37,265 nucleotides of DNA from an uncultured Alphaproteobacteria bacterium (GTDB taxonomy: Bacteria; Pseudomonadota; Alphaproteobacteria; HIMB59; GCA-002718135). Position 1 is the stretch's first letter, and the number at the start of each line of letters is the position of its first letter. The stretch is from assembly GCA_902616075.1 (NCBI GenBank), contig CACMRK010000006.1:1-37265 (forward strand), written 5' to 3'. The notes below the pieces were generated by a model. That model did not search any database, was not told the DNA's origin, and saw nothing but the letters and a program-made list of their open reading frames with translations. This document shows, piece by piece, positions 646-36,991 of this stretch. A program made the translations under genes and the position numbers.

Positions 646-1730
646 AAACGAAAATTAAATATGGAATTGTGGGAAGTGGACTAATGGGTTGTGAGCATAT
701 TTCAAATATTAATCTTATAGATTCAGCTGAAGTAGTTGCCATCTCAGACAGTAATGAAAATTCAATAAATAAAGCTAAAAATCTTATCTCAAATGATATT
801 AAAATCTATTCAAATAATAATGAAATTTTTAAAAATAATGAAGTGGATGCTTTTATTATTTCGACTCCCAATTTTACCCATCATGATATTATTAAAGAAG
901 CGTTAAAAACAAAAAAACATTTATTAATTGAAAAACCCTTATGTACAAAATTAGAAGATTGTCTTGAAATTAAAAAATTATCAACTTCATATCCATCAGT
1001 AATATGGGTGGCTATGGAGTATAGGTACATGCCACCTGTTCAAAAAATGATCCAAGAAATAGATACTAATAAAATTGGTAAGCTTAAAATGCTTTCAATT
1101 CGTGAACATAGATTTCCATTTCTTAAAAAAGTAGATGATTGGAATAGATTCAAAATAAACACCGGTGGAACATTAGTAGAAAAATGCTGTCATTTTTTTG
1201 ATTTAATGCGCCTAATTACAAATAGTGAAGTTACACAAGTATATGCAAGTGGTGACCAAAGTGTAAATCATCTTAATGAAAATTATAATGGAAAAGTTCC
1301 TGATATATTGGACAATGCATTTGTAATTTTAGATTTTAAAAATGGAATAAGAAGTTCTTTAGAACTTTGTATGTTTGCAGAAAATTCAGAAATGCAAGAA
1401 GAGCTATGTGTTGTTGGAGATAAGGGTAAAATAGAAACAGGTGTGCCAGCTGATGCATCTGGAAAAAACTCTTCAGAAGTTAGAATAGGTTTAAGAAACT
1501 CTAAAAATGCAATTAAAGAATTAGTTGAGGTAGATAAAAAAATTTTATCAGCTGGGCAACATCATGGATCGACTTATTATCAACATTTAGAATTTATTAG
1601 AGCAATTAATAATAATTTAAAACCACAGGTTTCTATAAACGATGGTCTTCACGCAGTGGCTATTGGAGAAGCAGCAGAGAAATCAATAAAAGAAAATCGT
1701 GTGGTTAAGATGAGTGAATTTAATCTTTAA
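642..1730 (+). CDS. Gfo/Idh/MocA family oxidoreductase
   Basis: A 362-residue NAD(P)-dependent enzyme of the glucose-fructose oxidoreductase/inositol dehydrogenase family. Visible are the Rossmann motif GIVGSGLMG (residues 8-16), the EKP motif that positions the catalytic lysine (97-99) and a GGTLVEKCCHFFDLM segment (about 175-189). There the usual D-x-G-x-H-x-x-D core appears as E-K-x-x-H-x-x-D, with K181, H184 and D187. Members oxidise sugars or inositols, and one branch (GH188, SqgA) cleaves sulfoquinovosides by an NAD-dependent oxidative mechanism; assignment to that branch cannot be made by eye. Start is ATG overlapping the upstream stop. Its 3' end overlaps the opposing dehydrogenase gene by 11 bp. 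Confidence 0.9.
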   Translation: MKTKIKYGIVGSGLMGCEHISNINLIDSAEVVAISDSNENSINKAKNLISNDIKIYSNNNEIFKNNEVDAFIISTPNFTHHDIIKEALKTKKHLLIEKPLCTKLEDCLEIKKLSTSYPSVIWVAMEYRYMPPVQKMIQEIDTNKIGKLKMLSIREHRFPFLKKVDDWNRFKINTGGTLVEKCCHFFDLMRLITNSEVTQVYASGDQSVNHLNENYNGKVPDILDNAFVILDFKNGIRSSLELCMFAENSEMQEELCVVGDKGKIETGVPADASGKNSSEVRIGLRNSKNAIKELVEVDKKILSAGQHHGSTYYQHLEFIRAINNNLKPQVSINDGLHAVAIGEAAEKSIKENRVVKMSEFNL

Positions 1731-2655
1731 AATTTTCAAAAAATTTATTTGTTTTATCAATTATAAAATTACTTACTCTAACGTTTGATTCAGCAGTTAC
1801 ACCTGCAATATGAGGTGTTAAGATGCAATTCATATCATTTGTAATATTGTTATAAAATGCTTCATTTACTGGTTCATTTTCAAAAACATCTAATGCGAAA
1901 CCAGAGATATATTTATTTTTATAAGCATCAATTAAGTCTTTCTCATTGATGACGCCACCCCTAGAAGAATTAATTATAATTGGTTGTTTTTTCATTTTAA
2001 TAAAAGCTTGTCTGTCAAATAGATACTTTGTTTCATTATTTAATGGGACATGAATAGAAATTATGTCGGCCAAATTAAGAATTTCATCGAATGAAACTTT
2101 CTTAACATTTTCTGCCTCCATTTGTTTCGAAGTTATAAAAGGATCATATGCAATACAGCTAACATCAAAAACATTTACAAGATTTAAAACTTTTTTTGAA
2201 ATATCCCCAAAACCTATTAGACCAAGTGTCTTTCCTCTAAGTTCTTTTGTAACAATTGATGTCCTTGGCCATTTTCCTTGTAGAGTTTGTTCTTTAATAA
2301 TGTGAGTTTTTTTTAATAATGTAAGAGAAGAATTCAAAACGTATTCTGCAACAGAGTCAGAATTCATGCCTGTTGCTGGCTGAACAATGATATTATTTTT
2401 TTTACAGTATTCTGTATCTATATTATCAAGACCAACACCTAATCTTCCTATAAACTTTAAATTTGATGCATTTATTAAAATTCTCTTATCTAAACTTGTT
2501 TTATTCCTTACGATGATGCCATCAAATTTCTGAATTTCTCTCTCTAAAAAATCTTTATTTTGCCAGGCATCTTTTTTATAAATTACATCAAATTTTTTAT
2601 TTATATTTTGCAATGATTGTGAATCTATAAATTCTGTAATTAAAATTTTTGTCAT
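1720..2655 (-). CDS. slcC: D-isomer 2-hydroxyacid dehydrogenase, probable (S)-sulfolactate dehydrogenase
   Basis: A 311-residue member of the D-isomer-specific 2-hydroxyacid dehydrogenase (SerA-like) family without a regulatory ACT domain. NAD-binding GLIGFGDI is at 145-152. The catalytic Arg (SRGG, R232), Glu (FENEP, E261) and His (PHIAG, H282) are all present. The N-terminal ITEFID, the GRLGVGLDNID segment, YDPF after the second Rossmann strand and HIAGVTAESN resemble, from memory, SlcC (EC 1.1.1.310), which oxidises (S)-3-sulfolactate to 3-sulfopyruvate with NAD. The location supports this: the sulfopyruvate decarboxylase genes lie two genes upstream in the same direction, and the start overlaps the kinase stop by 4 bp. 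A 3-phosphoglycerate dehydrogenase-like role is the main alternative. Confidence 0.75.
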   Translation of the reverse strand: MTKILITEFIDSQSLQNINKKFDVIYKKDAWQNKDFLEREIQKFDGIIVRNKTSLDKRILINASNLKFIGRLGVGLDNIDTEYCKKNNIIVQPATGMNSDSVAEYVLNSSLTLLKKTHIIKEQTLQGKWPRTSIVTKELRGKTLGLIGFGDISKKVLNLVNVFDVSCIAYDPFITSKQMEAENVKKVSFDEILNLADIISIHVPLNNETKYLFDRQAFIKMKKQPIIINSSRGGVINEKDLIDAYKNKYISGFALDVFENEPVNEAFYNNITNDMNCILTPHIAGVTAESNVRVSNFIIDKTNKFFENFKD

Positions 2656-3560
2656 TTAATTTTTCTAATTTTTAATTTTTTTAAAAACTTTTTTACGTTA
2701 TTTAAATTTGGTATTGAATATATGCCTCCAGCTTTCATGCATTTTAAAGTTGCAGTAGCTGCTGCCAATTGAATACTTTGAGAGTTTGATTTATTTAATG
2801 ATAGAGCTGTTGCAAAAGCACCATGAAAAACATCTCCTGCACAATTCGTTTCAACTGTTTTTACTTTTGGAACATTGCAATGATATAATGAGTTATTTTC
2901 AACCCAATAAACACCTTTTGATCCCATAGTAACTGCAACAAATTTATTTGTTTCATTGAATATTTGAAAAAGAGCCTTTTGCATATTGATGTTTTTTTTA
3001 TAAGTTTTCAAACCTTCTTCAGAAAATATAGGGTGCGAAGCTTTGTGAACAATTTCAGAAATTTTATTAGAATTTTTAAAATTATCTAGATCAGCAACAC
3101 ATTTAATATTTTTTTTATTGGTATTAATAGCAATATAAGAGGCCATATCTATCCATCTCATATCTATTGAATAAATATCCTTTTTTTTAAAATTTAATTT
3201 GGGTATTTTCTTATAATCAAGTAATTTTATATCATTGTATGCTGCTAGCAATCTTTCACCTTTTGTATCCTCAATTACAAAGCTTTGCGAAGACTGACAT
3301 TTTTTAATAAAAATTGATTTACTAGTATTTATAGAAAATTTTTTTAATTCATTTTTTAGAAAGACTGATGAATCATCATCTCCAAATTTTCCTATGAATT
3401 TTGAATCAGATCCCAAAATTTTTGCAGTAAATGCCGATACTGCTGCTGAACCACCTAATCTTTTATCAATACCTCTAGATAAAACTTTAATTGGTTTTTT
3501 TGGAAATTTATTAATCCTACTTATGTAATCTGTAAATATTGATCCTGCGCAAATGATCAT
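2652..3560 (-). CDS. PfkB family carbohydrate kinase
   Basis: A 302-residue ribokinase/PfkB-fold sugar kinase. The N-terminal Gly-Gly substrate motif is at 36-37 (RLGGSAAVSAF) and the C-terminal ATP/catalytic motif at 239-249 (NCAGDVFHGAF), with the likely catalytic base D243. The usual Thr/Gly before AGD is Asn-Cys here. The AGDVFHGAF form is shared with several hexose/ketose kinases, including sulfofructose kinase YihV as I remember it. It phosphorylates a sugar or sugar derivative with ATP. Overlap with the downstream dehydrogenase (TGA/ATG, 4 bp) and a 10-bp gap to the decarboxylase beta subunit indicate one operon. It is unusually rich in Lys, Asn and Ile, reflecting very low G+C. Substrate is inferred only: possibly a 6-sulfo-ketose. 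Confidence 0.88.
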   Translation of the reverse strand: MIICAGSIFTDYISRINKFPKKPIKVLSRGIDKRLGGSAAVSAFTAKILGSDSKFIGKFGDDDSSVFLKNELKKFSINTSKSIFIKKCQSSQSFVIEDTKGERLLAAYNDIKLLDYKKIPKLNFKKKDIYSIDMRWIDMASYIAINTNKKNIKCVADLDNFKNSNKISEIVHKASHPIFSEEGLKTYKKNINMQKALFQIFNETNKFVAVTMGSKGVYWVENNSLYHCNVPKVKTVETNCAGDVFHGAFATALSLNKSNSQSIQLAAATATLKCMKAGGIYSIPNLNNVKKFLKKLKIRKIK

Positions 3561-3570
3561 AAAATATTAA

Positions 3571-4140
3571 TTAAAGGTATTTAACTTTACCAATAAACTT
3601 TCTAAACCTATCTCTTATAGTTATAGGATTGAGTGGAATGGGATCAATTTTAACATTTCCAGAATTGATCTTTGAAATTATTACATATGAATTATCTTTA
3701 TCATCAATGGCTTTGTTTAATTCATTAACTGTTTCCTCGCCATAACATTCAATCACATTTTTGCAGCCAGCTCCTAATGCAACATCCTTTAAGGAAGTTT
3801 TCTCATCAGTAAATGTTCGTTGATCTCCTGTTGATCCATAAGAACCATTATCGATTATCAATAAAGTATAATTTGATGGCGCTCTATTACCTATTGTTGC
3901 TAGGGTGTTCATATTCATTAAAACTGATCCATCACCATCTATACTAATGACGTGTTTATTTTGGGATAGTGCCAAGCCTAAGCCAATAGAAGATGATAAG
4001 CCCATACTGCCTAACATATAAAAAAAATTTGGTTGATCACTAATTTTATATAATTCTTGAGATGGAAGACCTATATTACAAATAACTAAGTTATCTTTAA
4101 GAATATTTTGTACCTTATTTAATAAATCAAAACGGTTCAT
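3571..4140 (-). CDS. comE: Sulfopyruvate decarboxylase, beta subunit (TPP-binding)
   Basis: A 189-residue stand-alone TPP-binding domain. The ThDP/Mg motif begins GDGS (69-72) and ends at IDNGS (N98), the expected spacing of about 27 residues. An N-terminal IGLPSQELY and a MLGSMGLSSSIGLGLAL stretch are typical of the ComE/phosphonopyruvate decarboxylase C-terminal half. With the alpha subunit encoded just upstream it should decarboxylate 3-sulfopyruvate to sulfoacetaldehyde and CO2. Its ATG overlaps the alpha-subunit stop by 4 bp, consistent with stoichiometric expression. Split alpha/beta genes favour sulfopyruvate over phosphonopyruvate decarboxylase, which is usually a single chain, but the latter is not excluded by sequence alone. 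Confidence 0.82.
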   Translation of the reverse strand: MNRFDLLNKVQNILKDNLVICNIGLPSQELYKISDQPNFFYMLGSMGLSSSIGLGLALSQNKHVISIDGDGSVLMNMNTLATIGNRAPSNYTLLIIDNGSYGSTGDQRTFTDEKTSLKDVALGAGCKNVIECYGEETVNELNKAIDDKDNSYVIISKINSGNVKIDPIPLNPITIRDRFRKFIGKVKYL

Positions 4141-4637
4141 TTATCATCTTTCATTAAATTGAAATCACATAAAATAGCTACTGGTGATTCAACAACTTTG
4201 GCATGTTTGCTAAATGTTGAAATTTTATCTAATTCTTTTTCAGAAGAGCAATGCAACATAGGTATTCTCAACGTTTGTAAAATATCTTCAGTAATTTTAG
4301 CCATTCCACCTTGCGCTCCTACTGGCTCACCAGGTGTACCCCTGTAACTAATTAAAAAAACAACAGGCATTTGATATAATTGTAATAGAGAAACAATTGC
4401 ATTCACTGAATTTCCAATCCCTGTATTCTGCATCATTATACACGGGAATTTATTTCCTAAATAAGCTCCAGCACAAATACCCATACCTTCTTCCTCTCTT
4501 GGTACAGCCGAATAATAAACATCTTTATCATTTTCAAGAATATCAATCATGTTGGCTAATAACTTACAAGGAACACTTAAGTAAAAATCTACTCCACCTT
4601 TTTTTAAATTATCTATGATTTTTTTACTGATTTTCAT
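4137..4637 (-). CDS. comD: Sulfopyruvate decarboxylase, alpha subunit (PYR domain)
   Basis: A 166-residue pyrimidine-binding (PYR) half of a ThDP decarboxylase. Visible are the catalytic glutamate region REEEGMGICAGAYLG (47-61; E48-E50) that activates ThDP in the partner's active site, then MQNTGIGNSVNAI (69-81) and ISYRGTPGE (96-104). These match the ComD/phosphonopyruvate decarboxylase N-terminal half. It pairs with the beta subunit directly downstream. Known roles of ComDE are coenzyme M synthesis in methanogens and breakdown of C3 sulfonates (sulfolactate, DHPS) in marine bacteria. Lying between an aldose epimerase and a sugar kinase is unusual for either role and suggests that the sulfopyruvate derives from a sugar. 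Confidence 0.82.
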   Translation of the reverse strand: MKISKKIIDNLKKGGVDFYLSVPCKLLANMIDILENDKDVYYSAVPREEEGMGICAGAYLGNKFPCIMMQNTGIGNSVNAIVSLLQLYQMPVVFLISYRGTPGEPVGAQGGMAKITEDILQTLRIPMLHCSSEKELDKISTFSKHAKVVESPVAILCDFNLMKDDK

Positions 4638-4683
4638 TTATGCGGATGTCTATAGATATAAAATTATAAAACAATAAATTAAT

Positions 4684-5736
4684 TTATTTAAAATCATTTC
4701 TTAATTTTATTTTTGTATTTGAATTATATGTTTCGCCTACTTTTAATATAGTTGATGGAAAATTTGGTTGATTAATAGCATCTGGAAAAATTTGCGTCTC
4801 TAGACACATACCATATTGTAATCCATAATTTCGATTATGTTTGCCATGATATGAATCTTTCATCATATTACCAGTATAAAATTGTATTCCAGGTTGATCA
4901 GTCGAGTATTCAACTCCCATACCAGTAATATTACTGTAGATGGAAGCTATAGGTTGATCAATAGAATGATCTTTGAGAACATAATTGTGATCAATACCAC
5001 CGCCATCTAAAAAAGATTTATTTATTTCAAATGAATTATTAAGATCATATTTTGTATTAACTACATCGAATAGTTTACCAGTAGGAATTGATCCCTCATC
5101 AGTTTCGCAAATTTGATTAGATAATATTCTTACAACATGGTCAGTAATATTTTTATAATTATCTTTATGGCCATGGAAATTCCAATAGTTATGATTAGTC
5201 ATATTAACAATAGTATCTTGATCTGTTGTAGCATTAAAGGAAATTAGAATTTCGTTATTATTATTAAGTTCGTAAATAGTTTTACAATTTAGGTTGCCTG
5301 GATAATTTTCTTCTAAATGTTTAGACTGGTAAGTGAGCTCTACTTTAATACTTTGGCTTGTTTTTTTAATATCGGCTATTTTCCAAATCTTTTTATTGAA
5401 ACCTTCCTCTCCACCATGAAGATGATCAGGTTCAGTATTTGAATATAAATTATATTTTTTCCCATTAAGAGTAAATTTACTTTGCCCTATTCTATTACAA
5501 ACTCTTCCAATAATTGAATTGAAATATCCATGAGCTTCCAGGCAATCATCTAAATTACCATAACCTAATAAAACATCCTCTGTTTCAGAAACATTCGAAG
5601 AAATTGGAATACAAACTTCACTCATATAACCACCATAAGTATAAAAACTAAAACTATAATTGTTTGAGTTAATAATATTAACTATGTCAATATCTAAACC
5701 TTTATCATTTTGAAGTTTGGTAATTTTATATTCCAT
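4684..5736 (-). CDS. Aldose 1-epimerase (GalM family mutarotase)
   Basis: A 350-residue galactose-mutarotase family protein, full length. Key residues are visible: HLHGG (H105, H107), the general acid His in NHNYWNF (H182), and the general base Glu in CLETQIFPD (E313). It interconverts alpha and beta anomers of a free aldose. The stop-proximal end is 46 bp upstream of comD, and its start overlaps the stop of the EamA permease gene by 1 bp. Mutarotases also accompany sulfoquinovose operons (for example yihR), where they speed up anomer supply for the isomerase or dehydrogenase. Here its linkage to comDE and slcC is the strongest hint that the imported substrate includes an aldose. No signal peptide, so probably cytoplasmic. 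Confidence 0.92.
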   Translation of the reverse strand: MEYKITKLQNDKGLDIDIVNIINSNNYSFSFYTYGGYMSEVCIPISSNVSETEDVLLGYGNLDDCLEAHGYFNSIIGRVCNRIGQSKFTLNGKKYNLYSNTEPDHLHGGEEGFNKKIWKIADIKKTSQSIKVELTYQSKHLEENYPGNLNCKTIYELNNNNEILISFNATTDQDTIVNMTNHNYWNFHGHKDNYKNITDHVVRILSNQICETDEGSIPTGKLFDVVNTKYDLNNSFEINKSFLDGGGIDHNYVLKDHSIDQPIASIYSNITGMGVEYSTDQPGIQFYTGNMMKDSYHGKHNRNYGLQYGMCLETQIFPDAINQPNFPSTILKVGETYNSNTKIKLRNDFK

Positions 5737-6635
5737 TATGTTTTCCTTAATCTTTGAAAATTATTTTTTCTTTGTTGAAGATAAATGATTAATCCACCTA
5801 AAACTATGAAAAAAGCACCTGGGAAAAGTTGATCAACTGGCCATTCTGCAAAAAATATCCAACCTAAAATGAGTGCAAAAAATATCTCGATATAATCAAA
5901 TGGCATAATTTTACTAAGTTCTGCTTTTCTAGCACCATATATTAAAAGTAAAGTTCCAGATCCTCCTGCAATCCCCATTACACAAACTACTAAGAAATCA
6001 TTTATACTTTTGAAATTTTCCCACATGCCAAAAAACACCACTAACATACATGCAACTATGATTGTCCCTGTTTGACCATACAAGTTGATAAGTGGTGAAG
6101 GAACATGATCCTCAAAACTTAAGGATGTTACCCTTGCTAATGAATATCCAAATGCAGCAAGTATAGGAAGTAATAACATATAATTAAAGTCTGATGACCA
6201 AGGTTGCATAATTAAAACGATACCTACAAAACCAGAAATTACTGCACTCATTTTGTACCAACCAAATTTTTCACCTAATAAAGGAATAGCAAGAAGGGTT
6301 ACCATCATGGGCCCAGTGTATTCCATTGTAGCGACTAAAGCAAAAGGTAAGTAAGCATAAGAAGTATAGAGACATAATTGAGCCAATGCTACAAATACTC
6401 CGCGGAATAATCCTAACTTCCATTGCGTTATTTTTATTTGTCTACCATTTCGATGCCATTCATGTGAAAAATATAAAGCGATAACACATGGGATCATTCC
6501 AAATAAATTTCTAAAAACAGAAAGTTGAGCTGCTGGATATTCGTTTCGTAAAAACTTTATCGCAATCCCCATACAATCCAATAAAAACAAACCTGAAAGT
6601 GATAATATAACAGCTAAAAATAAATTATTTTTCAT
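5736..6635 (-). CDS. EamA/DMT-superfamily permease
   Basis: A 299-residue integral membrane protein with about ten hydrophobic segments in two EamA repeats. Typical elements are the early FLRNEYPAAQLSVFRNLF stretch, a GLFRGVFVALAQ segment, MEYTGPMMVTLLA closing the first repeat, and a C-terminal LGGLIIYLQQR end. DMT-superfamily proteins are usually exporters of metabolites or amino acids in the inner membrane. The gene lies inside the array between a sugar dehydrogenase (13 bp upstream) and the epimerase (1-bp overlap downstream), so it is probably co-transcribed. It might export a by-product such as an organosulfonate or a sugar acid; that is inference from position only. Confidence 0.88.
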   Translation of the reverse strand: MKNNLFLAVILSLSGLFLLDCMGIAIKFLRNEYPAAQLSVFRNLFGMIPCVIALYFSHEWHRNGRQIKITQWKLGLFRGVFVALAQLCLYTSYAYLPFALVATMEYTGPMMVTLLAIPLLGEKFGWYKMSAVISGFVGIVLIMQPWSSDFNYMLLLPILAAFGYSLARVTSLSFEDHVPSPLINLYGQTGTIIVACMLVVFFGMWENFKSINDFLVVCVMGIAGGSGTLLLIYGARKAELSKIMPFDYIEIFFALILGWIFFAEWPVDQLFPGAFFIVLGGLIIYLQQRKNNFQRLRKT

Positions 6636-6648
6636 TAATCATAATCTG

Positions 6649-7707: not shown

Positions 7708-7723
7708 ATTTATATTTTTTAAT

Positions 7724-8713
7724 TTAGATATTTATCCATTTTTTTTCTTTTTCTGACTGGTAAATTGATTCCATTATACTACTTCTCAATGCTGCTTCTG
7801 TAGGAGTAACTAGATTTTTAGTATTGTTATCAATTAATGAATTGAGAAACAAATCAAATGCATGAGGCAATGTTTCTGGTAAATTTTCTTCTATTCTTTC
7901 TATTTTTTTACCTTCCTTATTTTCGTTTATAATTAATTGCTCATTCGTTGTTCTTGCGTGAGCTTTCGTTCCACTTACAAAAATAGTATAAGGCTGCGCT
8001 ATATCTATCCATCCCGCAGCAATACTAGCTATCAACCCGCTTTTAAATTTTATTAAAGCTTCTCCACTTTCTTCACAATCTGGATATTGATTATATACTT
8101 TTGTAAAGGTTGCGCTCACTGACTCAACATCAGAAAAAAACCATAAAAGAAGATCTAAAACATGTGTTCCTAAATCACCAAAAGCTCCAACGCCTGCAAC
8201 TTTAGGATCTGTCATCCATTGATAGTTTTTAAAAATATTCCGCATAATACCATCGTGACAATTAATAAGTCGAATTCTTGAAATTTCACCAAAATAATTA
8301 TCAGTAATTAATTGTTTAAGCTTTATGTAAACAGGATTACTTCTCATGAAATATCCAGTTTGAAAAATAATTTTTGAAGACTCAATAAGATTTGCCATTT
8401 CAAAAGAGTCTTTTTTTCCTATACCCAAAGGTTTTTCTATAAAACAGTGTTTTTTATTCTTGGTAATTTTTTTAACTAATTCATAGTGCAAATTAGTTTC
8501 TGAACATACTATAACACCATCTAAATTAGGTTCTTTCAATAAATCAACATAGTTATCATAATTCTTACATTGCAGTTTATCAGAGTCAATTTTTGACCTA
8601 TTCTTGTCTTTGTCCCAAACACCAATACAATTAATTTTAATGTTTGAAATTACCTTAGAAATAAAATTTGGTGTATGAATATGAGAAGTTCCAATAAATG
8701 CTATATTTTTCAT
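7724..8713 (-). CDS. Gfo/Idh/MocA family oxidoreductase (third copy)
   Basis: A 329-residue member of the same family. The nucleotide-binding start is atypical, FIGTSHIHTPNF, with His replacing part of the usual G-x-G-x-x-G; the EKP motif (IEKPLGIG) and GAFGDLGTHVLDLLLWFF (active-site D-x-x-x-H-x-x-D) are intact. The weakened glycine motif suggests altered cofactor geometry or a bound cofactor, but other family members show similar N termini. It is 18 bp downstream of the DppF-like ATPase gene and therefore the first metabolic gene after the transporter, a position often taken by the enzyme acting first on the imported compound. Substrate not predictable from sequence. Confidence 0.9.
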   Translation of the reverse strand: MKNIAFIGTSHIHTPNFISKVISNIKINCIGVWDKDKNRSKIDSDKLQCKNYDNYVDLLKEPNLDGVIVCSETNLHYELVKKITKNKKHCFIEKPLGIGKKDSFEMANLIESSKIIFQTGYFMRSNPVYIKLKQLITDNYFGEISRIRLINCHDGIMRNIFKNYQWMTDPKVAGVGAFGDLGTHVLDLLLWFFSDVESVSATFTKVYNQYPDCEESGEALIKFKSGLIASIAAGWIDIAQPYTIFVSGTKAHARTTNEQLIINENKEGKKIERIEENLPETLPHAFDLFLNSLIDNNTKNLVTPTEAALRSSIMESIYQSEKEKKWINI

Positions 8714-8731
8714 TACAGTTATAAAAACTAC

Positions 8732-9718
8732 TTATAGAGCACAACACTGATCGACCCAGTGACCTGGTTCAACTTCAATAAGGCCCATTTTTATTTCTCC
8801 ACCTTTGCAATCTACTCCAGGATTAGGACATCTGGTTCTAAACACACAACCTGGAGGCGGATTTAATGCACTAGGAATTTCTCCCTTTAGTTCTATAGCT
8901 TCAGATCTTTTCTCTGGATCAATTGATGGAATAGAAGATAATAGTGCCTTTGTGTAAGAATGTTTTGGGTTCTTAAATAATTCTCTTGAGGGTCCCATTT
9001 CAACTATGTGCCCCAAATACATAACTGCAACAACATCACATACATGAGCTACTACACTTAAATCATGACTTATGAATAAATAAGTTAGGTTAAGCTCAGT
9101 TTGAAGTTGTTTTAAAAGATTTAATATATCTGCTTGTATTGATACATCTAAAGCAGCAACACTTTCATCTGCTACTATAAATTTTGGATTACTTACTAAG
9201 GCTCTTGCAATTGATATTCTTTGTCTTTGTCCTCCAGAAAATGCATGAGGAAATCTTCTTAAATGCTCAATATTTAATCTACATTTTGAAGCAATGTCTC
9301 TTACTCTTTCATCAGTTTCTTGTCTTGAGTTTGTTATTTTCATCACTTCTAAAGGCTCTGCAATAATATCCCTCACTGTCATTCTTGGACTTAAAGCAGC
9401 ATAAGGATCTTGAAAAATTAATTGAGCTTTTTTTCTATATTCTTTTAAATCTTGTTTGTTCATATCTGTTAAATCATAATCTCTTTCATCGTCATGAAAA
9501 ATAACATTTCCAGAACTAATTTTGTTAGCTCCAAGTATTGCTCTACCAAGAGTAGTTTTTCCTGAACCAGATTCACCCACTAAACCAAAAAAAGATCCTT
9601 TTTTAATTTTGATATTGATATTGTTTACAGCGTGTATTTTTTGTTTTTTTGAAATAAAATTTTCTTGATAATCAAAATTTACTGAAACATTATTTACTGA
9701 AATTAAATTATCACCCAT
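8732..9718 (-). CDS. Opp/Dpp-type ABC transporter ATP-binding protein (DppF/OppF-like)
   Basis: Cytoplasmic ATPase of a peptide/oligosaccharide-type importer. From the chosen start (328 residues) Walker A GESGSGKTT is at 48-56, the ABC signature SGGQRQ at 161-166, Walker B with catalytic Glu at D184-E185 and the H-loop His at 218 (ISHDL). A C-terminal oligo/dipeptide domain contains the FRTRCP cysteine motif. I start at the ATG at 9716-9718, not the upstream ATG at 9772. Homology begins at MGDNLISVNN, and this start overlaps the upstream ATPase stop by only 8 bp, against 62 bp for the longer start. Its last residues almost repeat the end of the upstream ATPase. Confidence 0.93.
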   Translation of the reverse strand: MGDNLISVNNVSVNFDYQENFISKKQKIHAVNNINIKIKKGSFFGLVGESGSGKTTLGRAILGANKISSGNVIFHDDERDYDLTDMNKQDLKEYRKKAQLIFQDPYAALSPRMTVRDIIAEPLEVMKITNSRQETDERVRDIASKCRLNIEHLRRFPHAFSGGQRQRISIARALVSNPKFIVADESVAALDVSIQADILNLLKQLQTELNLTYLFISHDLSVVAHVCDVVAVMYLGHIVEMGPSRELFKNPKHSYTKALLSSIPSIDPEKRSEAIELKGEIPSALNPPPGCVFRTRCPNPGVDCKGGEIKMGLIEVEPGHWVDQCCAL

Positions 9719-10700
9719 TTTGACCACACTTAATTCCACATTGATCAACCCAGTGACCTGGTTCAACTTCAATTAATTTCATTTCTATTTTACCATCTTT
9801 TCCTTCTGGATTATGATGGGGGCATCTAGTTCTAAATACACACCCTGTTGGTCTATCTAATGGACTTGGAATATTTCCAGGTATTGGAGATAACGGTGCG
9901 TCTAAGTTATTTATGTCAGGTAAAGCTTGTAATAGCCCTTTTGTATAAGGATGTTTTGGGTTTTTAAGGATCTCATTTACTGGACCTTTCTCAACTACAC
10001 TTCCCAAATACATAACCGCTACATGATCAGCTACCTGTGCAATAACACCTAGATCGTGAGTAATAAATATTACTCCCATTTGATATTCTTTAATAATATC
10101 TTTAATTAGGTTAATTACTTGAGCTTGAATTGTTACATCTAAAGCAGTTGTTGGCTCATCTGCTAATAAAAGTTTAGGCATTGTTGATAGTGCCATAGCT
10201 ATCATTGCTCTTTGACGCATTCCCCCAGATAATTCAAATGCATATTGATTAAACCGTTTTTCTGCATCTGCTATGCCTACTCTTTTTAGCATGTTTATGG
10301 ATATTGATTTTGCTTCCTCTTTATTAATATTTTTATGAATTAGTAATTGCTCAACCATTTGTGCGCCAATTTTTATTGCTGGAGCAAAACTTGCCATAGG
10401 CTCCTGAAAAATCATTGATACTTTACCACCTCTTATTTTTTTTAAGTCTTGCTTAGAGGTAAATTGAAGAACATTTTCGTTATCTAAAATTATTTCTGCG
10501 TCTTCATTATAAGAAGTATTACCTGGATTTAATTTCATAATCGATTTAGCAGTCACAGATTTACCTGATCCGGATTCACCAACTATACCAAGTACTTCAC
10601 CTTGATCTACAGAAAGAGAGATATTTTCAACTGCAGTAATTCTACCTTCATCAGTATCAAATTTTACATCCAAATTTTTTACTTCTAATAAATGGCTCAT
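9711..10700 (-). CDS. Opp/Dpp-type ABC transporter ATP-binding protein (DppD/OppD-like)
   Basis: A 329-residue ATPase, partner of the DppF-like subunit. Walker A GESGSGKSV is at 41-49, the signature LSGGM at 157-161, Walker B ADEPTTALD with D181-E182, and the H-loop in ITHDLG. The C-terminal oligopeptide-transporter domain has the GCVFRTRCPH cysteine motif and ends in VEPGHWVDQC, also seen in the partner ATPase. It energises import together with the two permeases encoded just upstream (1-bp spacer to the DppC-like gene). The two ATPases form a heterodimer in this transporter class. Confidence 0.95.
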   Translation of the reverse strand: MSHLLEVKNLDVKFDTDEGRITAVENISLSVDQGEVLGIVGESGSGKSVTAKSIMKLNPGNTSYNEDAEIILDNENVLQFTSKQDLKKIRGGKVSMIFQEPMASFAPAIKIGAQMVEQLLIHKNINKEEAKSISINMLKRVGIADAEKRFNQYAFELSGGMRQRAMIAMALSTMPKLLLADEPTTALDVTIQAQVINLIKDIIKEYQMGVIFITHDLGVIAQVADHVAVMYLGSVVEKGPVNEILKNPKHPYTKGLLQALPDINNLDAPLSPIPGNIPSPLDRPTGCVFRTRCPHHNPEGKDGKIEMKLIEVEPGHWVDQCGIKCGQNG

Positions 10701-10701
10701 A

Positions 10702-11814
10702 TTACTTTACCTTATGAGGATCTGCTGCATCACGTAATCCATCCCCTACATAGACAAATGTTAAAATTAATACGACTAAGAAAAACACAGGGATAAAATA
10801 CCATTGATAGTTAAGAAGTACGTCAGCCTTAGTTGCATTTTGCAAAAGTACACCAAGAGAATTTACTGGTTCTCTCAAACCAAGTCCTATAAAACTTAAA
10901 GCAGTTTCAGATAATAACATGTATGGAAAACTAATGACTAAATCGACAATAATATAACTCGTGAAACTTGGTAATAAGTGTCTTACAATAATGTGAGTAG
11001 ATGATGCTCCACAAAGTTTTGCAGCAAGAATATATTCTTGGCTTCTTTCACTAAGTAAATGTGTTCTTACTCTTCTTGCAAGAGTTGGCCATGAAATTAA
11101 TCCTAGCAAACAGGAAATAAAAAAGAACCGTAATTCAGAACTCCATTCTAATGGTGCAAAGGCAGCAAGACACATAAATAAAGGTATTGGTGGAACCGTT
11201 CGAATTGCATCAGTAAACATTTGTAATACGCTATCAATCCAACCACCATAGTAACCTGAGATTCCACCTATTATTAGGGAAAGAACAAAAGATATAAATA
11301 CACCAAGTGTTCCAACAGCCAGTGAAATGTAAATTGCACTTAAGGTTCTACTGAATAAATCTTTTCCTGCCTTATCTGTTCCAAATATATGGATACCACC
11401 TTCTTCAACTCCAAATAAATGAGTATTAAATGTAAAACCTGGAATTTTAAAATCTAAAATTTTTCCTGGAAGATTTATATTAAAATCAAAAACTTTATAT
11501 TCCCACCCTTCAACAAAAAAATAAACGTATCTTCTTTTTTCAGTATCAACTTTATAAACCCATCTAAAATTTGTATCTGCTCCTCTATATTTTTCTAATG
11601 TGTGTAAAAACGGCCTTGCAGAAAATCCATTATCATCCCAAAACATTGGAATTTGAGGTGCTCCATTTTCATAATCTTTATCTCTCCCTTTAATTGTTGG
11701 ATCATAAGGTGATAAAAAATCAGCAAAGAGACTACAAATAATCATAAACAATAAAATAGAACCAGCAATCATAGCTGATCTATTTCCAAAAAAGCGTGTT
11801 CTTACTAACTGCAT
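10702..11814 (-). CDS. Opp/Dpp-type ABC transporter permease (DppC/OppC-like)
   Basis: A 370-residue inner-membrane permease. An N-terminal transmembrane helix (about 15-35) is followed by a long, probably periplasmic, insertion of roughly 100 residues rich in aromatic residues. A five- to six-helix core carries the ATPase-contact loop AAKLCGASSTHIIVRHLLP. Ordinary DppC proteins are about 290-300 residues, so the insertion explains the extra length. Similar long forms occur with the large family-5 binding proteins thought to take oligosaccharides or glycosides rather than peptides (from general knowledge). The gene is 38 bp downstream of the DppB-like permease. Confidence 0.93.
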   Translation of the reverse strand: MQLVRTRFFGNRSAMIAGSILLFMIICSLFADFLSPYDPTIKGRDKDYENGAPQIPMFWDDNGFSARPFLHTLEKYRGADTNFRWVYKVDTEKRRYVYFFVEGWEYKVFDFNINLPGKILDFKIPGFTFNTHLFGVEEGGIHIFGTDKAGKDLFSRTLSAIYISLAVGTLGVFISFVLSLIIGGISGYYGGWIDSVLQMFTDAIRTVPPIPLFMCLAAFAPLEWSSELRFFFISCLLGLISWPTLARRVRTHLLSERSQEYILAAKLCGASSTHIIVRHLLPSFTSYIIVDLVISFPYMLLSETALSFIGLGLREPVNSLGVLLQNATKADVLLNYQWYFIPVFFLVVLILTFVYVGDGLRDAADPHKVK

Positions 11815-11852
11815 CTGCGTTGCAGTGTAATAAGCTTCTTTTTTTTTGATTA

Positions 11853-12866
11853 CTAACCTCCACCCATAACTCCTTTTCTTATTCTTGGATCAATTATAGC
11901 TAAAATAATATCCGTTATAAAATTCACAAAAACAATTGTTGCTGTTAGAAGAAAAATAATTGCACCTGCTAATTGCTGATCATTTGATCTTGCTAGAGCT
12001 TCAATCAACAATGCCCCAGCTTCAGTAAGAATTAAAATTAAGGCTACAATCGGCAATGCACTAAATATACGATTAAGGTCGAAACCTATAGAATTGATTA
12101 CTGGACCTAAAGAATGTTTTGCGGGATATCTCCACAACAAACTCATTCCTGATATTCCTCTAGCCCTTGCAGCCATTACATATAGTTTATCATTTTCATC
12201 TAGCATTAGTGCTCTTACTGTTTGAAGAGCAAAGGCAGTTGCATTCCAACCTAAAACAAATATTGGAAGCCAAGCTCTACTTAAAAAATCAAATAGTTTT
12301 GCTGATGACCAGGGTTCGTTTTCATATTCTTGAGAAAATAAACCTGTCATCGTATCGCCATAGTAAACAGTCATAAAAAGCATAATACAGAGTGCTACTA
12401 AAAAATTGGGAAGTGCTATTCCAAGATAACTAATAAATTTAAGCGTATTATCTAATGATGCATATTTTGTCGTGGCCGATATGATCCCAACTGGTATGGC
12501 AATTAAATATGAAAATATTAGTGCAACCAAACATATTGTTAAAGATAAAGTAAATCTTCCACTTAATAATTCATTAATATTCATTCTTAGAATACAACTA
12601 TCACCAAAATCTCCATTAAAAACTATATTAGAAACCCATTTGCCATATCTATACAAAAAAGGTTTATCTAAACCTAAACGAATTTTTTCTTTTTCTATGT
12701 CTTCATAAGTTATTTGTGATCCTTGTGTATTTTTAAATGCTAGATATCTTTCAGCACAAGTTCCAGGAACTAATTCCATTAATGAAAAAACAATAAAGCA
12801 TACAAGAAGCAAAGTTATAATTGCAAGTCCTGCTCTTGTGAGAGTAAATTGTATAAAATTAATCAT
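11853..12866 (-). CDS. Opp/Dpp-type ABC transporter permease (DppB/OppB-like)
   Basis: A 337-residue inner-membrane permease with the family's N-terminal transmembrane helix (about 10-32), a periplasmic segment with GLDKPFLYRYGKWV, and five further helices. The ATPase-coupling loop reads AARARGISGMSLLWRYP. The sequence ELVPGTCAE after helix 1 matches the conserved ..PGDP.. position of DppB proteins. It pairs with the DppC-like permease to form the channel. The start lies 86 bp from the binding-protein stop, with a strong hairpin in that gap, so its mRNA level is probably lower than that of the binding protein. Confidence 0.94.
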   Translation of the reverse strand: MINFIQFTLTRAGLAIITLLLVCFIVFSLMELVPGTCAERYLAFKNTQGSQITYEDIEKEKIRLGLDKPFLYRYGKWVSNIVFNGDFGDSCILRMNINELLSGRFTLSLTICLVALIFSYLIAIPVGIISATTKYASLDNTLKFISYLGIALPNFLVALCIMLFMTVYYGDTMTGLFSQEYENEPWSSAKLFDFLSRAWLPIFVLGWNATAFALQTVRALMLDENDKLYVMAARARGISGMSLLWRYPAKHSLGPVINSIGFDLNRIFSALPIVALILILTEAGALLIEALARSNDQQLAGAIIFLLTATIVFVNFITDIILAIIDPRIRKGVMGGG

Positions 12867-12902
12867 ATAAAATAATTAGGAGACAAGAATAATTAAAAAA
12901 AG

Positions 12903-12931
12903 AAAAGCGGCAATATATAATTGCCGCTTTT
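12903..12931 (-). terminator. Intercistronic hairpin / attenuating terminator after the binding-protein gene
   Basis: Perfect 11-bp inverted repeat (arms 12903-12913 and 12921-12931, core GCGGC/GCCGC) with a 7-nt loop, flanked by T-rich runs in both directions. On the minus strand it follows the binding-protein stop by about 20 bp and precedes the DppB-like start by about 35 bp. In that position a hairpin usually gives partial termination and protects the upstream mRNA from 3' decay, raising binding-protein levels over permeases. It could act bidirectionally. Confidence 0.8.
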
Positions 12932-12952
12932 TTTATTATTTATTGAGTTAAA

Positions 12953-15007
12953 TTACTCGTCTAACCACCATTGAGTAGCTAGGTATGGGTATGTTCTATA
13001 ATACTCATACGAAGTAGTTTTAAACTGCGTAAAGTTTTTCAAAGCATTTCTATGATAAGTTGGAAAAGGTGCTTTCACCGTACCAATCAATAGACTTTGC
13101 TCTGTTAACATTGTTGCAATTTTTTCACCCCACTCATTAGACTCAGCAGTACCAAGAGCGTAAGATTGGAATTTATCAATTCCATCACTTAAGTCATATA
13201 CCCACTGAGGAGGTTCAGTACCTTCGTCACCATTACTATCAATGTATGCTGCCCAATCTAAACCTTGTGTATGGTTAAAGTAGTTACCAAACGGAGGTTT
13301 AAATGTTTCTGGGTTACCAGCAACAATTGCTAATGGTTGACCTTTATCCCAAACATGAACGTCAAGTTGGTTAGCAGCTTGCGAACCACGATATTCATCT
13401 GGAGTTACCTCTTTAAAAGTAGTTTTTACTCCTACTTCATTGAAGTATCTTGCAACAAGTTCAACTTCAACACCACCAATACCTTGAGTAGCATAGTCAA
13501 TATTTATAGCTAGAGCATCACCATTTGGTAATTCTCTAAATCCATCACCATCAACGTCTTTTAATCCTACTTCATCAAGCAGAGCATTTGCTCCATCTGG
13601 ATCGTATTGAGTCATATGCATTTTTATACTTTCAGGGACGAAGTCAGGTGCAGGAGAAAATCCTACAAACTGCTCAACTTTACCTAAACCGTAATATGCA
13701 ACTTCGTTGATCTCGTCTCTATTCATAGCAATTGACATTGCTTGACGGAAACGAATATCCCCATAGACTTTACGTTTTTCAGGATCAGGATGTGTTACAT
13801 TAAAACTAAATAATGCAGCACCACAACCTGGATTGATTTGAACTTGATATCCACCAGACTCAGCACCATCAAGTAATTGAGGAGCGGACTCTAATTGAAC
13901 AGACTGTGATTTATAATCAACTTCACCATTAACAAGTTTTAACAATCTTATTTCATTTTCATTGATGTATCTTTCATTTTGATAATCAATGTATGGTAAT
14001 TGATTTCCAGCTGTATCAACTTGGAAAAAGTATGGGTTAGCTGCATAGACTCTACCTTCAGTAGTATCTTCAATAGTCATGTAAGCTTCTAAAGAAGGAT
14101 AAGCTGCATAAGGTAATCCAGCAACTAGATCTGGTTTAGCTAGTAAAGGAGTTGGAGTATCAGTCCAACCTGAGTTACCATAATATGCTGCTAAAGCATC
14201 ATAACCATCTGCAAATCCTAATGCTTGAGCATTTGCATCAGCATTTGAATCAATTTCCGGATGGAATTGTTCTAGGAAATGTGAAGGCATGAAGAACTGG
14301 TTATATGACCATGCAATAGTTGCAGTTAAACCAGGGAACGGAGATGGTAAGTTAAATCTTACTGTTTGATCATCAATTACATCAACAGTCATTGGCTCAC
14401 CACCAACTAAAAGATATGGATATGGTTTTTCACGAATCTTTGGATTCATCATCAAATCTTCGTACCAAAACTCAACATCTCTAGCCACAAAAGGTTCACC
14501 ATTTGACCACTTGTGACCTTTACGTAACATGAATGTTAAAGTAGTAAAATCATCATTCCACTCATAATCTTTAGCAACGTTTGGAACAATTGTAGTTAAG
14601 TCATCAGCAAAACGTAATAAGTTTACGTGTCTTGTAGATAGCATATCAGAAGTTCCAGCTTCAGTTGCATTCGATAAGAAGTTTATTGTATTTCCATATT
14701 TACCAATAGACTCATATGGTACTACAACAAGTGGCTCATCAGGTAATCTATCCTCAACTGGAGGTAGACTTCCTGGGTTACCTTGTATTGTAGCGTTTAT
14801 GCTAGCAATATTTGGATTATCTGAAAACTTCATAGTACAGCCGGCTGCACTTTCATATTCTGATAACTCATATTGCTGAGGATATTTTCCGCCTGTCTGC
14901 GCATCGTTCATTGTTGTACCTACGCAATGACCACCTGCAAAAGAGCTTCCACTCCAGACAAAGGTTGCGGAAGAAAATACTAACGCTATGAATAGTTTTT
15001 TTAACAT
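12953..15007 (-). CDS. ABC transporter solute-binding protein, family 5 (long form)
   Basis: A 684-residue periplasmic binding protein of the SBP_bac_5 type. Residues 1 to about 24 form a signal peptide (basic start, hydrophobic core, SSFA cleavage site). The family pattern is visible as W-S-N-G-E-P-F near TFMLRKGHKW and RFRQAMSIAMNRDEI in the middle. Peptide binders of this family are usually about 500-550 residues; the 684-residue length fits the long subgroup linked to carbohydrate or glycoside import. It is the promoter-proximal gene of the minus-strand array, with a clear Shine-Dalgarno and a hairpin behind it. Its coding sequence is richer in G+C than the metabolic genes downstream, consistent with high expression. 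Ligand unknown; a sulfosugar glycoside would fit the downstream genes. Confidence 0.94.
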   Translation of the reverse strand: MLKKLFIALVFSSATFVWSGSSFAGGHCVGTTMNDAQTGGKYPQQYELSEYESAAGCTMKFSDNPNIASINATIQGNPGSLPPVEDRLPDEPLVVVPYESIGKYGNTINFLSNATEAGTSDMLSTRHVNLLRFADDLTTIVPNVAKDYEWNDDFTTLTFMLRKGHKWSNGEPFVARDVEFWYEDLMMNPKIREKPYPYLLVGGEPMTVDVIDDQTVRFNLPSPFPGLTATIAWSYNQFFMPSHFLEQFHPEIDSNADANAQALGFADGYDALAAYYGNSGWTDTPTPLLAKPDLVAGLPYAAYPSLEAYMTIEDTTEGRVYAANPYFFQVDTAGNQLPYIDYQNERYINENEIRLLKLVNGEVDYKSQSVQLESAPQLLDGAESGGYQVQINPGCGAALFSFNVTHPDPEKRKVYGDIRFRQAMSIAMNRDEINEVAYYGLGKVEQFVGFSPAPDFVPESIKMHMTQYDPDGANALLDEVGLKDVDGDGFRELPNGDALAINIDYATQGIGGVEVELVARYFNEVGVKTTFKEVTPDEYRGSQAANQLDVHVWDKGQPLAIVAGNPETFKPPFGNYFNHTQGLDWAAYIDSNGDEGTEPPQWVYDLSDGIDKFQSYALGTAESNEWGEKIATMLTEQSLLIGTVKAPFPTYHRNALKNFTQFKTTSYEYYRTYPYLATQWWLDE

Positions 15008-16694: not shown

Positions 16695-16701
16695 TAAAGA
16701 T

Positions 16702-25550: not shown

Positions 25551-25556
25551 AAATTT

Positions 25557-26591: not shown

Positions 26592-26621
26592 TATGCTATT
26601 TTAAATTACATAGAAAGATAT

Positions 26622-26649
26622 AAGGGGTTTTCAAATTTGAAAACCCCTT
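26622..26649 (-). terminator. Perfect 28-bp palindrome hairpin after the CUT1 binding-protein gene
   Basis: Two 14-bp arms with no spacer (26622-26635 and 26636-26649, core GGGGTTTTC/GAAAACCCC). On the minus strand it begins about 20 bp after the binding-protein stop and lies about 30 bp before the MalF-like start, with AT-rich flanks. It likely acts as a partial terminator and 3' mRNA stabiliser. Same placement as the hairpin at 12903-12931. Confidence 0.8.
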
Positions 26650-26671
26650 TTTATTGATTTATATTTATTGA

Positions 26672-36154: not shown

Positions 36155-36165
36155 ATGATTATAAT

Positions 36166-36957: not shown

Positions 36958-36991
36958 GATTCTTTTAACAGAATTTTTTTATTAATTAAAA

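Follow-up and report, generated by a model that had tools for sequence, protein, structure and literature searches.

A predicted sulfoquinovose catabolic module wired into sulfolactate and sulfopyruvate breakdown in the alphaproteobacterial AEGEAN-169/HIMB59 clade

We analyzed a stretch of 37,265 bases from an uncultured surface-ocean alphaproteobacterium of the AEGEAN-169/HIMB59 clade (hereafter, the window), which is the complete contig C6 of a genome of 1.05 Mb that is 62% complete. Since the window spans the whole contig of such a genome, both of its ends are cuts. A 13-gene operon (1720–15007) and the convergent gene pair next to it (1–1730) probably make up a module for the catabolism of sulfoquinovose (SQ), a sulfosugar of plants and algae, that feeds into C3-sulfonate dissimilation. 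We also lean, by a small measure, toward a more specific proposal, in which a sulfoglycolytic Embden–Meyerhof–Parnas (sulfo-EMP)-type front end is followed by SlcC, ComDE, and Xsc. Such a combination would be an undescribed one-cell route from SQ glycosides to acetyl-CoA and sulfite, present in AEGEAN-169 and also in an alphaproteobacterium unrelated to it, where the genes from the kinase through ComE lie in a single run; most AEGEAN-169 members would need an unrecognized aldolase to complete it.

The operon consists of 13 minus-strand open reading frames (ORFs) with an intergenic spacing of −62 to +86 bases, in agreement with the first-pass annotation of this DNA, which had described thirteen same-strand genes from overlapping to 86 bp apart. 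Nine of the 13 proteins were scanned against NCBIfam and Pfam, and their families were the ones named earlier: a family-5 binding protein, two Gfo/Idh/MocA proteins, EamA, aldose 1-epimerase, ComD, ComE, PfkB, and D-2-hydroxyacid dehydrogenase. The two permeases and two ATPases of the ATP-binding cassette (ABC) transporter were recognized by eye. A genome scan, in which the best 80 of 100 comE relatives were kept (73 from this lineage and 7 from other alphaproteobacteria), confirmed that the operon is real and conserved across the genus. The counts per gene given below cover only those lineage loci whose contig extends far enough, and they hold at the level of the locus, not of the whole genome. 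The genes of the pair and the operon are as follows.

1–645, plus strand: putative SftI-type (L-fucose-isomerase-like) sulfoquinovose isomerase, C-terminal 214 residues, truncated by the left end of the contig
642–1730, plus strand: predicted GH188 NAD+-dependent sulfoquinovosidase (SqgA), from the nearest solved SqgA structures and conserved residues
1720–2655, minus strand: predicted SlcC-like sulfolactate dehydrogenase (D-2-hydroxyacid dehydrogenase superfamily), from a tree and gene context
2652–3560, minus strand: PfkB-family sulfofructose kinase-like protein (YihV-like), from the structure match 7ag6
3571–4140, minus strand: ComE, predicted sulfopyruvate decarboxylase beta subunit, from TIGR03846 and a tree
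4137–4637, minus strand: ComD, predicted sulfopyruvate decarboxylase alpha subunit, from TIGR03845 and a tree
4684–5736, minus strand: aldose 1-epimerase (GalM), candidate sulfoquinovose mutarotase, from PF01263
5736–6635, minus strand: EamA membrane transporter, candidate exporter by its presumed role, from PF00892
6649–7707, minus strand: accessory Gfo/Idh/MocA oxidoreductase, DgpA-like (best solved structures DgpA1/DgpA)
7724–8713, minus strand: accessory Gfo/Idh/MocA oxidoreductase, from Pfam, a solved-structure search, and locus counts
8732–9772, minus strand: ABC transporter ATPase (AbcF), by eye, in 67 of 68 loci
9711–10700, minus strand: ABC transporter ATPase (AbcD), by eye, in 64 of 67 loci
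10702–11814, minus strand: ABC transporter permease, by eye, in 63 of 64 loci
11853–12866, minus strand: ABC transporter permease, by eye, in 62 of 63 loci
12953–15007, minus strand: family-5 solute-binding protein (SBP5) of 684 residues, from PF00496, in 60 of 61 loci

The protein encoded at 642–1730 is predicted to be a GH188 sulfoquinovosidase (SQase) that keeps all of the tested catalytic and sulfonate-binding residues. Its nearest solved structures were FlSqgA (8qc2 and 8qc8, 357 bits) and ArSqgA (8qc3, 8qc5, and 8qc6, 350 bits), followed by the oxidoreductase 8zn9 (326 bits), after which the scores dropped to 106; the PDB codes of the two SqgA proteins and the substrate residues of ArSqgA were assigned from the accessible part of PMC10755693. 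Counterparts of all seven ArSqgA residues, namely the sulfonate residues R166, L170, and K172 and the additionally tested K107, Y136, E189, and H193, were found in the window gene, together with the His321 motif. The pattern of the sulfonate triad matched 55 of the 55 SqgA homologs in the lineage, and a stricter GH188 motif screen flagged 19 of these 55 because it required EYRYMPP and HHGSTYY in full. The plasmid relatives of SqgA sit in clusters that appear, from pathway names given by eye, to belong to the sulfoglycolytic alkanesulfonate monooxygenase (sulfo-ASMO) and Entner–Doudoroff (sulfo-ED) types.

Among solved PfkB proteins, the operon kinase is by sequence nearest to the sulfofructose kinase YihV. 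Its best match was 7ag6 (E = 3.6e-45, with the next at 3e-27 and a lead of 59 bits), and it shares 35.5% identity with E. coli YihV over 293 residues. The isomerase fragment at 1–645 is 62% identical to residues 248–459 of the 460-residue ortholog at locus L060, which lies in the single-cell genome AG-891-K05, whose comE is 98% identical to that of the window and which is the reference for genomospecies GCA002718135-1 (PMC10734472, accessible part). The nearest solved structure of GalM was the aldose 1-epimerase 1snz, and the PF01263 family leaves its substrate unfixed. The sulfosugar handling proposed in the first-pass annotation is thus supported by a predicted GH188 sulfoquinovosidase, an SftI-type isomerase, and a YihV-like kinase, and the best of this evidence lies just outside 1720–15007. 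The boundaries drawn earlier remain valid for the operon, whereas the functional unit would reach further left, to the GH188 and isomerase genes on the plus strand.

These proteins might instead belong to an ordinary sugar operon, in which fucose, tagatose, or galactosides would be the substrates of the kinase, epimerase, isomerase, and Gfo proteins. Pfam indeed displayed only Fucose_iso_C and PfkB, and some of the solved SBP5 relatives are named sugar-binding; the intact sulfonate triad of the GH188 protein, the nearness of the kinase to YihV, and the linkage to SlcC and ComDE make an ordinary sugar operon very unlikely.

At the other end of the proposed pathway, the pair ComD and ComE is predicted to be a sulfopyruvate decarboxylase, from its scores against equivalog models and from its clade. 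ComD scored 161.0 against TIGR03845 (cut-off 147.95) and ComE scored 222.4 against TIGR03846 (cut-off 221.5), a margin of 0.9 bits; the TIGR03846 cut-off was passed in 13 of the 61 genomes searched, and two of the 14 control genomes also score above the cut-off of the comE model. When ComD and ComE were concatenated for a tree, the lineage grouped with roseobacter, Kiloniella, Magnetovibrio, and Rhodospirillales sequences with support 97/98, and AepY and two other thiamine enzymes fell outside this group; the separation from AepY is to be read with caution given the long outgroup branches. A phosphonate route, in which the pair would be a phosphonopyruvate decarboxylase, appears extremely improbable: the two enzymes share a superfamily and weaker matches to TIGR03297 do exist, but these scores are 100 and 133 against a cut-off of 312.5, the tree places the pair apart from AepY, albeit across those long branches, and no match of the phosphoenolpyruvate-mutase type was found among the best 25 NCBIfam matches listed for each protein.

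The dehydrogenase at 1720–2655 grouped (97/98) with genes in the SlcC position of plasmid clusters and with two ComDE-adjacent homologs, apart from SerA, while the inner order of this group is open; the SlcC labels in the tree rest on gene context, not on a characterized SlcC sequence. Four of its best plasmid relatives were examined, three of them annotated. An Ldh-family (ComC-like) gene is the next gene in all three, and two of the three also have a UxaA-family pair (SuyA/SuyB-like) close by. Identity as SerA was rejected, since the score for TIGR01327 was 258 bits against a cut-off of 454 and the tree places the protein apart from SerA. The clades that the first-pass annotation had named as refuting its reading, phosphonopyruvate for the decarboxylase and phosphoglycerate for the dehydrogenase, were thus not the ones obtained: ComDE falls beside the sequences of roseobacters, Kiloniella, and Rhodospirillales and the dehydrogenase beside SlcC-position genes of C3-sulfonate clusters.

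ComDE could also be thought to make coenzyme M, supplying sulfoacetaldehyde for a thiol cofactor used by MetE-like proteins. ComDE is a coenzyme M enzyme in methanogens (PMC3787637, accessible part) and the window encodes two proteins of the methionine synthase family; Xsc, however, degrades sulfoacetaldehyde, the SlcC clade is one of catabolic clusters, and the gene set fits sulfoglycolysis, and we give this function hardly any probability. The two proteins (16651–17751 and 29742–30872) are stand-alone members of the cobalamin-independent methionine synthase family. The former matches the Pfam model of the catalytic domain, and a relative (53%) of it lies near a 2-hydroxyacid dehydrogenase and ComDE in the Rhodospirillales locus L119.

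The two parts of the module, SQ genes and C3 genes, occur together in most loci, and the conservation of the operon goes beyond chance. Among the 73 lineage comE loci, SBP5 was found in 60 of 61, GalM in 69 of 70, EamA in 67 of 70, PfkB in 58 of 67, the homolog of the dehydrogenase at 1720–2655 in 57 of 66, and the homolog of the 642–1730 protein in 55 of 64; the isomerase could be counted in 55 loci and is present in 46. Where the locus continues for 4.5 kb or more downstream (55 loci), the genes for kinase, SlcC, SQase, and isomerase behaved as an all-or-none set: all four were present in 46, none in 9, and no locus was mixed. The Gfo pair, named as operon members in the first-pass annotation, is present in the window, but the two genes are accessory, since 27 of 61 loci have both of them and the other 34 have neither. 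In a separate search, 26 of 37 genomes of the genus and none of the 24 from the other family of the order had a comE match above 200 bits. All six genus genomes that are at least 90% complete carry comE (>220 bits), the isomerase, and xsc (>939 bits), the isomerase of G116 being a piece at a contig end. In loci lacking the SQ genes, an aldo/keto reductase (L039, 2083–3093) or a UxuA-like dehydratase (L042, 12736–13920) adjoins comE, as judged by eye.

Xsc, which would desulfonate the product of ComDE, was not found in the window's own assembly, 62% complete as it is. Its model passed the cut-off in 18 of 25 genus genomes (the own genome included among the 25), with a further split copy in G001, and in none of 16 genomes of the other family and none of the 14 controls. 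Among genomes G001–G024, 15 carry both xsc (counting the split copy) and comE, and the two genes lie on the same contig, 28–57 kb apart, in 11 of the 15. The exchanger-like gene cut by the right end of the window is followed directly by xsc in G005, and by xsc after one gene for a glucose–methanol–choline (GMC) oxidoreductase in G024. Because xsc follows this gene, directly or after one more, in these syntenic relatives, the window's own xsc probably lies off the contig. Three further features of the right-hand part of the window bear on this end of the pathway.

20322–21221, plus strand: phosphotransacylase, 307.4 against the cut-off of 282 for NF006045, matching positions 167–458 of that bifunctional model
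34032–35351, plus strand: predicted HpsN-like dehydrogenase (HisD superfamily) acting at C-3 of 2,3-dihydroxypropane-1-sulfonate (DHPS), a C3-sulfonate entry enzyme, from the solved structure 8v35
36950–37265, minus strand: end piece of a cation-exchanger-like membrane gene, by eye, 98% identical to residues 214–303 of the G005 protein

The phosphotransacylase would convert acetyl phosphate to acetyl-CoA after Xsc. The HpsN-like protein scored 400 bits with the sulfopropanediol 3-dehydrogenase 8v35 against 261 with HisD, and a separate HisD (512 bits) is encoded on contig C5 of the same genome. A second HisD-family gene is present in five of the six near-complete genus genomes; HpsN is not universal, as G079 lacks such a gene.

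Some neighbors of xsc and of its presumed position deserve mention. A GMC oxidoreductase gene (L026, 6986–8590; also in G017, G021, and L195) stands tail to tail with xsc, and its product is choline-dehydrogenase-like and might oxidize isethionate. On the xsc side of the window, 35353–36957 encodes an adenosine-5′-phosphosulfate-kinase-like protein, a small nucleotidyltransferase-like protein (by eye), and CysQ; in G017, G021, and G111 that position is occupied instead by CysD/CysN-like proteins (by eye) together with CysQ. At 17748–20203, an AptA-type omega-aminotransferase (585 against a cut-off of 500) lies beside an alanine dehydrogenase. The pairing of omega-aminotransferase and alanine dehydrogenase belongs to taurine dissimilation. 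This pair could supply sulfoacetaldehyde to the same Xsc.

A comparable run of genes was found outside the genus. Matches to the SftI model occurred in 10 of 337 sampled alphaproteobacterial genomes; of those outside the genus, we looked into the five with the highest scores. In G147, from another family and scored 100% complete, kinase, aldolase, SftI, SqgA, GalM, aldehyde dehydrogenase, SlcC, ComD, and ComE form one run. The kinase is YihV-like (39% identity), the aldolase is 46% identical to that of AEGEAN-169, SlcC is 59% identical to a Paracoccus protein, and ComE is 68% identical to that of Alisedimentitalea; the GH188 protein keeps all seven tested residues, the aldehyde dehydrogenase is of the semialdehyde type, and the isomerase is of the SftI type. 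TRAP-like transporter genes (tripartite ATP-independent periplasmic, by eye) and one ORF lie upstream, and xsc is on another contig. G241 and G345, from a third family, have the same run as far as the aldehyde dehydrogenase and both carry xsc. SlcC comes next in G345, where comE was not found; we do not claim SlcC for G241, which has comE elsewhere, because the ORF list gave a longer opposite-strand ORF at that place. G457 has the isomerase and aldolase, no xsc above the cut-off, and a ComE match of 127 bits, and in G370 one contig carries an aldolase, an SlcC-like stretch, and pieces resembling the isomerase, with neither comE nor xsc above the cut-off in that genome. Plasmid pZZM402 of Zymomonas has a class II aldolase, an epimerase, an SftI-type isomerase (35%), and a GH188 protein (48.5%) as neighbors, with a semialdehyde dehydrogenase nearby.

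An alternative explanation is that the operon serves C3-sulfonate catabolism of DHPS or sulfolactate, as in roseobacters, and that the adjoining sugar genes are a separate pathway placed there by chance. On three named roseobacter plasmids, comDE is accompanied by a TRAP transporter, an HpsN annotated as hisD, a short-chain dehydrogenase/reductase (SDR), and an alcohol dehydrogenase, with xsc in the same stretch on one of them; the window also has HpsN, and 9 of 55 loci retain ComDE without the SQ genes. Chance adjacency nevertheless accords poorly with the all-or-none behavior of SlcC with the kinase, SQase, and isomerase, with the same set plus an aldolase in one run of an unrelated genome, and with an intact sulfonate site in the GH188 protein, and we therefore regard it as unlikely.

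Export of a C3 product should also be considered. SQ might be degraded only to sulfolactate or DHPS and the product exported, perhaps via EamA, with SlcC and ComDE serving imported sulfolactate. Known sulfoglycolysis yields sulfolactate or DHPS (PMC12890257 and PMC12421959, accessible parts) and EamA is present in nearly all loci; SlcC, ComDE, and the kinase nonetheless share one operon, and xsc is found in every near-complete genus genome. Degradation stopping at export is, in our judgment, improbable.

Under the SQ-to-sulfite reading that we prefer, flux would run in the degradative direction as follows. The SBP5 transporter would import an SQ glycoside such as sulfoquinovosyl glycerol, GH188 SqgA would release SQ from it, and GalM may equilibrate the SQ anomers. 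The SftI-type isomerase would convert SQ to sulfofructose and the YihV-like kinase would phosphorylate the latter to sulfofructose 1-phosphate, which an aldolase, for which a LacD/YihT-type gene adjoins the isomerase in some relatives only, would split into dihydroxyacetone phosphate and (S)-sulfolactaldehyde. An aldehyde dehydrogenase or HpsN may oxidize sulfolactaldehyde to sulfolactate; SlcC would then form sulfopyruvate, ComDE sulfoacetaldehyde and CO2, Xsc acetyl phosphate and sulfite, and phosphotransacylase acetyl-CoA. The proposed stereochemistry is coherent with published specificities: (S)-sulfolactaldehyde gives (S)-sulfolactate in sulfosugar breakdown (PMC12421959, accessible part), and SlcC is an (S)-sulfolactate dehydrogenase, HpsN acts on (R)-DHPS, and a GabD acts on both sulfolactaldehydes (PMC11131964). 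HpsN is a less obvious candidate for sulfolactaldehyde oxidation here because it acts on (R)-DHPS.

The first-pass annotation had pointed to the neighboring sequence as the place to look for an aldolase, a sulfolactaldehyde dehydrogenase, and xsc; relatives do have xsc linked to comE, and 7 of the 46 related loci have a class I aldolase of the LacD/YihT type immediately beside the isomerase, whereas no dedicated sulfolactaldehyde dehydrogenase was recognized in the window. The best solved relatives of this aldolase are, in order, 8tnf (named a DUF2090 protein), LacD, and YihT. Across the genus, 22 of 102 genomes gave any match to it, with an identity of at least 62% in 8 of these. A sulfofructose-phosphate aldolase within the cluster, by which sulfo-EMP is recognized, was not found at the window locus. 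Two candidates for related steps were rejected: a second transaldolase like that of the sulfoglycolytic transaldolase pathway (one transaldolase copy in five of the six near-complete genomes, two in G091, and none in the own genome) and the SDR of the window, which shares only 26–29% identity with the SDRs adjoining HpsN in roseobacter and Kiloniella clusters.

A number of observations weigh against the proposed route. For the aldolase, no LacD/YihT-type match was found in the own, 62%-complete genome, and the six near-complete genus genomes gave a single short partial match, in G061 beside the isomerase. Class II aldolases, considered as candidates for the missing enzyme, do not track the module: one or two matches occur in 94 of 102 genomes of the genus, with or without the isomerase, and the one in the own genome sits within an inositol-type cluster (by eye). 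For the oxidation of sulfolactaldehyde, neither a dedicated dehydrogenase nor a reductase was recognized in the window, and, of the five matches to aldehyde dehydrogenases in the own genome, the nearest, which is GabD-like and on contig C2, exceeds the NCBI cut-off for succinate-semialdehyde dehydrogenase and lies away from sulfonate genes. For the isomerase, the full-length orthologs scored 275 and 299 bits with NF048012 and the window fragment 188 bits, far under the cut-off of 700, for which reason we label the protein SftI-type and not SftI; the only other NCBIfam match of the full-length orthologs was one of 19 bits, for one of them. No match in 102 genus or 337 class genomes reached this cut-off, two of the 14 control genomes also gave sub-cut-off matches, and the model matches 65 of the 102 genus genomes, some of them only by way of another, weaker-scoring isomerase-like protein. 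GalM shares 22.5% identity with YihR, which is not a close match. As regards co-occurrence, the counts ignore kinship among the genomes; four of the 19 comE genomes among G001–G024 lack xsc (G002, G007, G014, and G022, 59–88% complete), four others have xsc and no comE (G003, G006, G012, and G013), a core of SBP5, EamA, GalM, and ComDE persists without SQ genes in 9 of 55 loci, and, of the five genomes outside the genus with the strongest SftI matches, two are without comE and xsc above the cut-offs.

Persistence of that SBP5–GalM–ComDE core also implies that the transporter may carry something else than an SQ glycoside. The nearest solved structures of SBP5 were 5ipw, SPH1118 (7ver), and the alpha-galactoside-binding 6epy. 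At L189 (G061, 935–6533), GalM, ComD, ComE, PfkB, and SlcC follow a spermidine/putrescine-like ABC transporter (by eye), suggesting that the transporter is exchangeable. The transporter cluster beyond the isomerase likewise varies among L060, L071, L080, and L104 (by eye), with sugar ABC types, a further hydroxyacid dehydrogenase, and sulfatase-like proteins. Several relatives have further sulfatase-like proteins and a formylglycine-generating-enzyme-like protein by the isomerase-side transporter (by eye). Divergent from the binding-protein gene, 15159–16694 encodes a PehA-like sulfatase with a CGPSR motif, far under its model cut-off (411 against 900). At 24669–27913, a sugar ABC transporter (SBP1, MalF, and MalG), with no ATPase seen adjoining, lies beside SnoaL-like, haloacid dehalogenase (HAD), and SDR genes; swapping is suggested by the identity of its binding protein, 39–48% in four of the five relatives having it and 99.8% in the fifth.

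If the proposal is true, a streamlined open-ocean clade combines sulfosugar breakdown and desulfonation, with an exit via ComDE and Xsc. SQ is described among the most abundant organic sulfur compounds, and carbon-chain-splitting SQ routes of other bacteria mostly end at sulfolactate, DHPS, isethionate, or sulfoacetate, while the routes that break the C–S bond first, sulfo-ASMO and the dioxygenase type sulfo-ASDO, consume all carbon within one cell (PMC12890257, accessible part). Sulfosugar and desulfonating routes together in one bacterium have been called unusual (PMC12421959, accessible part). The set of GH188, SftI-type isomerase, YihV-type kinase, SlcC, and ComDE would serve as a marker for metagenomes, and lineages with a run of the G147 type may serve as cultivable test beds.

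As for the literature, linkage of sulfoglycolysis genes to ComDE was not described in the accessible portions of PMC12330013, PMC11382572, PMC12421959, PMC13372026, PMC12890257, PMC8873060, PMC12133307, and PMC10504371; this corpus leaves the subscription literature largely uncovered and hence is no proof of novelty. In their accessible parts, PMC12330013 names ComDE and Xsc in the legend to an overview of how DHPS is degraded, PMC10504371 mentions AEGEAN-169 and SQ without linking them, the main text of the review PMC12890257 has no word starting with "sulfopyruvate," and the main texts of the AEGEAN-169/HIMB59 papers PMC10308909, PMC10734472, and PMC11366302 have no words starting with "sulfo-" and neither "taurine" nor "sulfonate." The first-pass annotation had considered a single operon from a sulfosugar to sulfoacetaldehyde to be new. 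Such an operon is seen in G147. In the window the phrase is not literal, because the route is split over two convergent units with no identified aldolase or dedicated sulfolactaldehyde dehydrogenase. Reaching sulfoacetaldehyde from SQ is itself no novelty, as the sulfoglycolytic transketolase pathway (sulfo-TK) already does so via transketolase (PMC12890257, accessible part), whereas a ComDE-linked sulfoglycolysis was not encountered in the literature as accessible to us.

Among known systems (compared here through the accessible parts of the cited papers), the module resembles sulfo-EMP of the E. coli yih type, and of Arthrobacter with GH188 SqgA and excreted sulfolactate, in its SQase, epimerase family, isomerase step, YihV-like kinase, and, in some relatives, LacD/YihT-type aldolase. 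It differs in that the isomerase is of the SftI and not the YihS type, that the pathway would continue via SlcC, ComDE, and Xsc, and that the aldolase was not found in the window's lineage. In Actinobacteria bacterium IMCC26103, the predicted GH188 "Y160" cluster (PMC11465081) is the closest published architecture we encountered; it shares GH188, a fucose isomerase, a sulfofructose kinase, a D-3-phosphoglycerate-dehydrogenase gene, and ABC transporters, and includes a sulfofructose-phosphate aldolase and a sulfolactaldehyde dehydrogenase. That cluster has the sulfolactate sulfolyase SuyAB, whose place ComDE and Xsc take here, and position 170 of GH188 is Leu in the window and Tyr in the "Y160" type. 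The tandem of sulfofucolysis with SlcC/ComC and SuyAB in Paracoccus wurundjeri (PMC12421959) likewise leads from a sulfosugar to sulfite in one cell via sulfolactaldehyde, sulfolactate, and SlcC, but it has an ED-type front end acting on sulfofucose, and SuyAB instead of ComDE and Xsc. Sulfo-TK (PMC12890257) shares the endpoint sulfoacetaldehyde and differs in its two transketolase cleavages (of sulfofructose and sulfoerythrulose), in the reduction of the product to isethionate or its oxidation to sulfoacetate, and in having no ComDE. The DHPS route through HpsNOP, SlcD, ComDE, and Xsc (PMC11382572) shares HpsN and the ComDE–Xsc end; it starts at DHPS and, in the three plasmid clusters examined, comes with TRAP transport and no sulfosugar genes. 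Set against these systems, the module appears to join a sulfo-EMP-like front end to SlcC, ComDE, and Xsc and would thus be a variant of known pathways, not new in reaching sulfoacetaldehyde.

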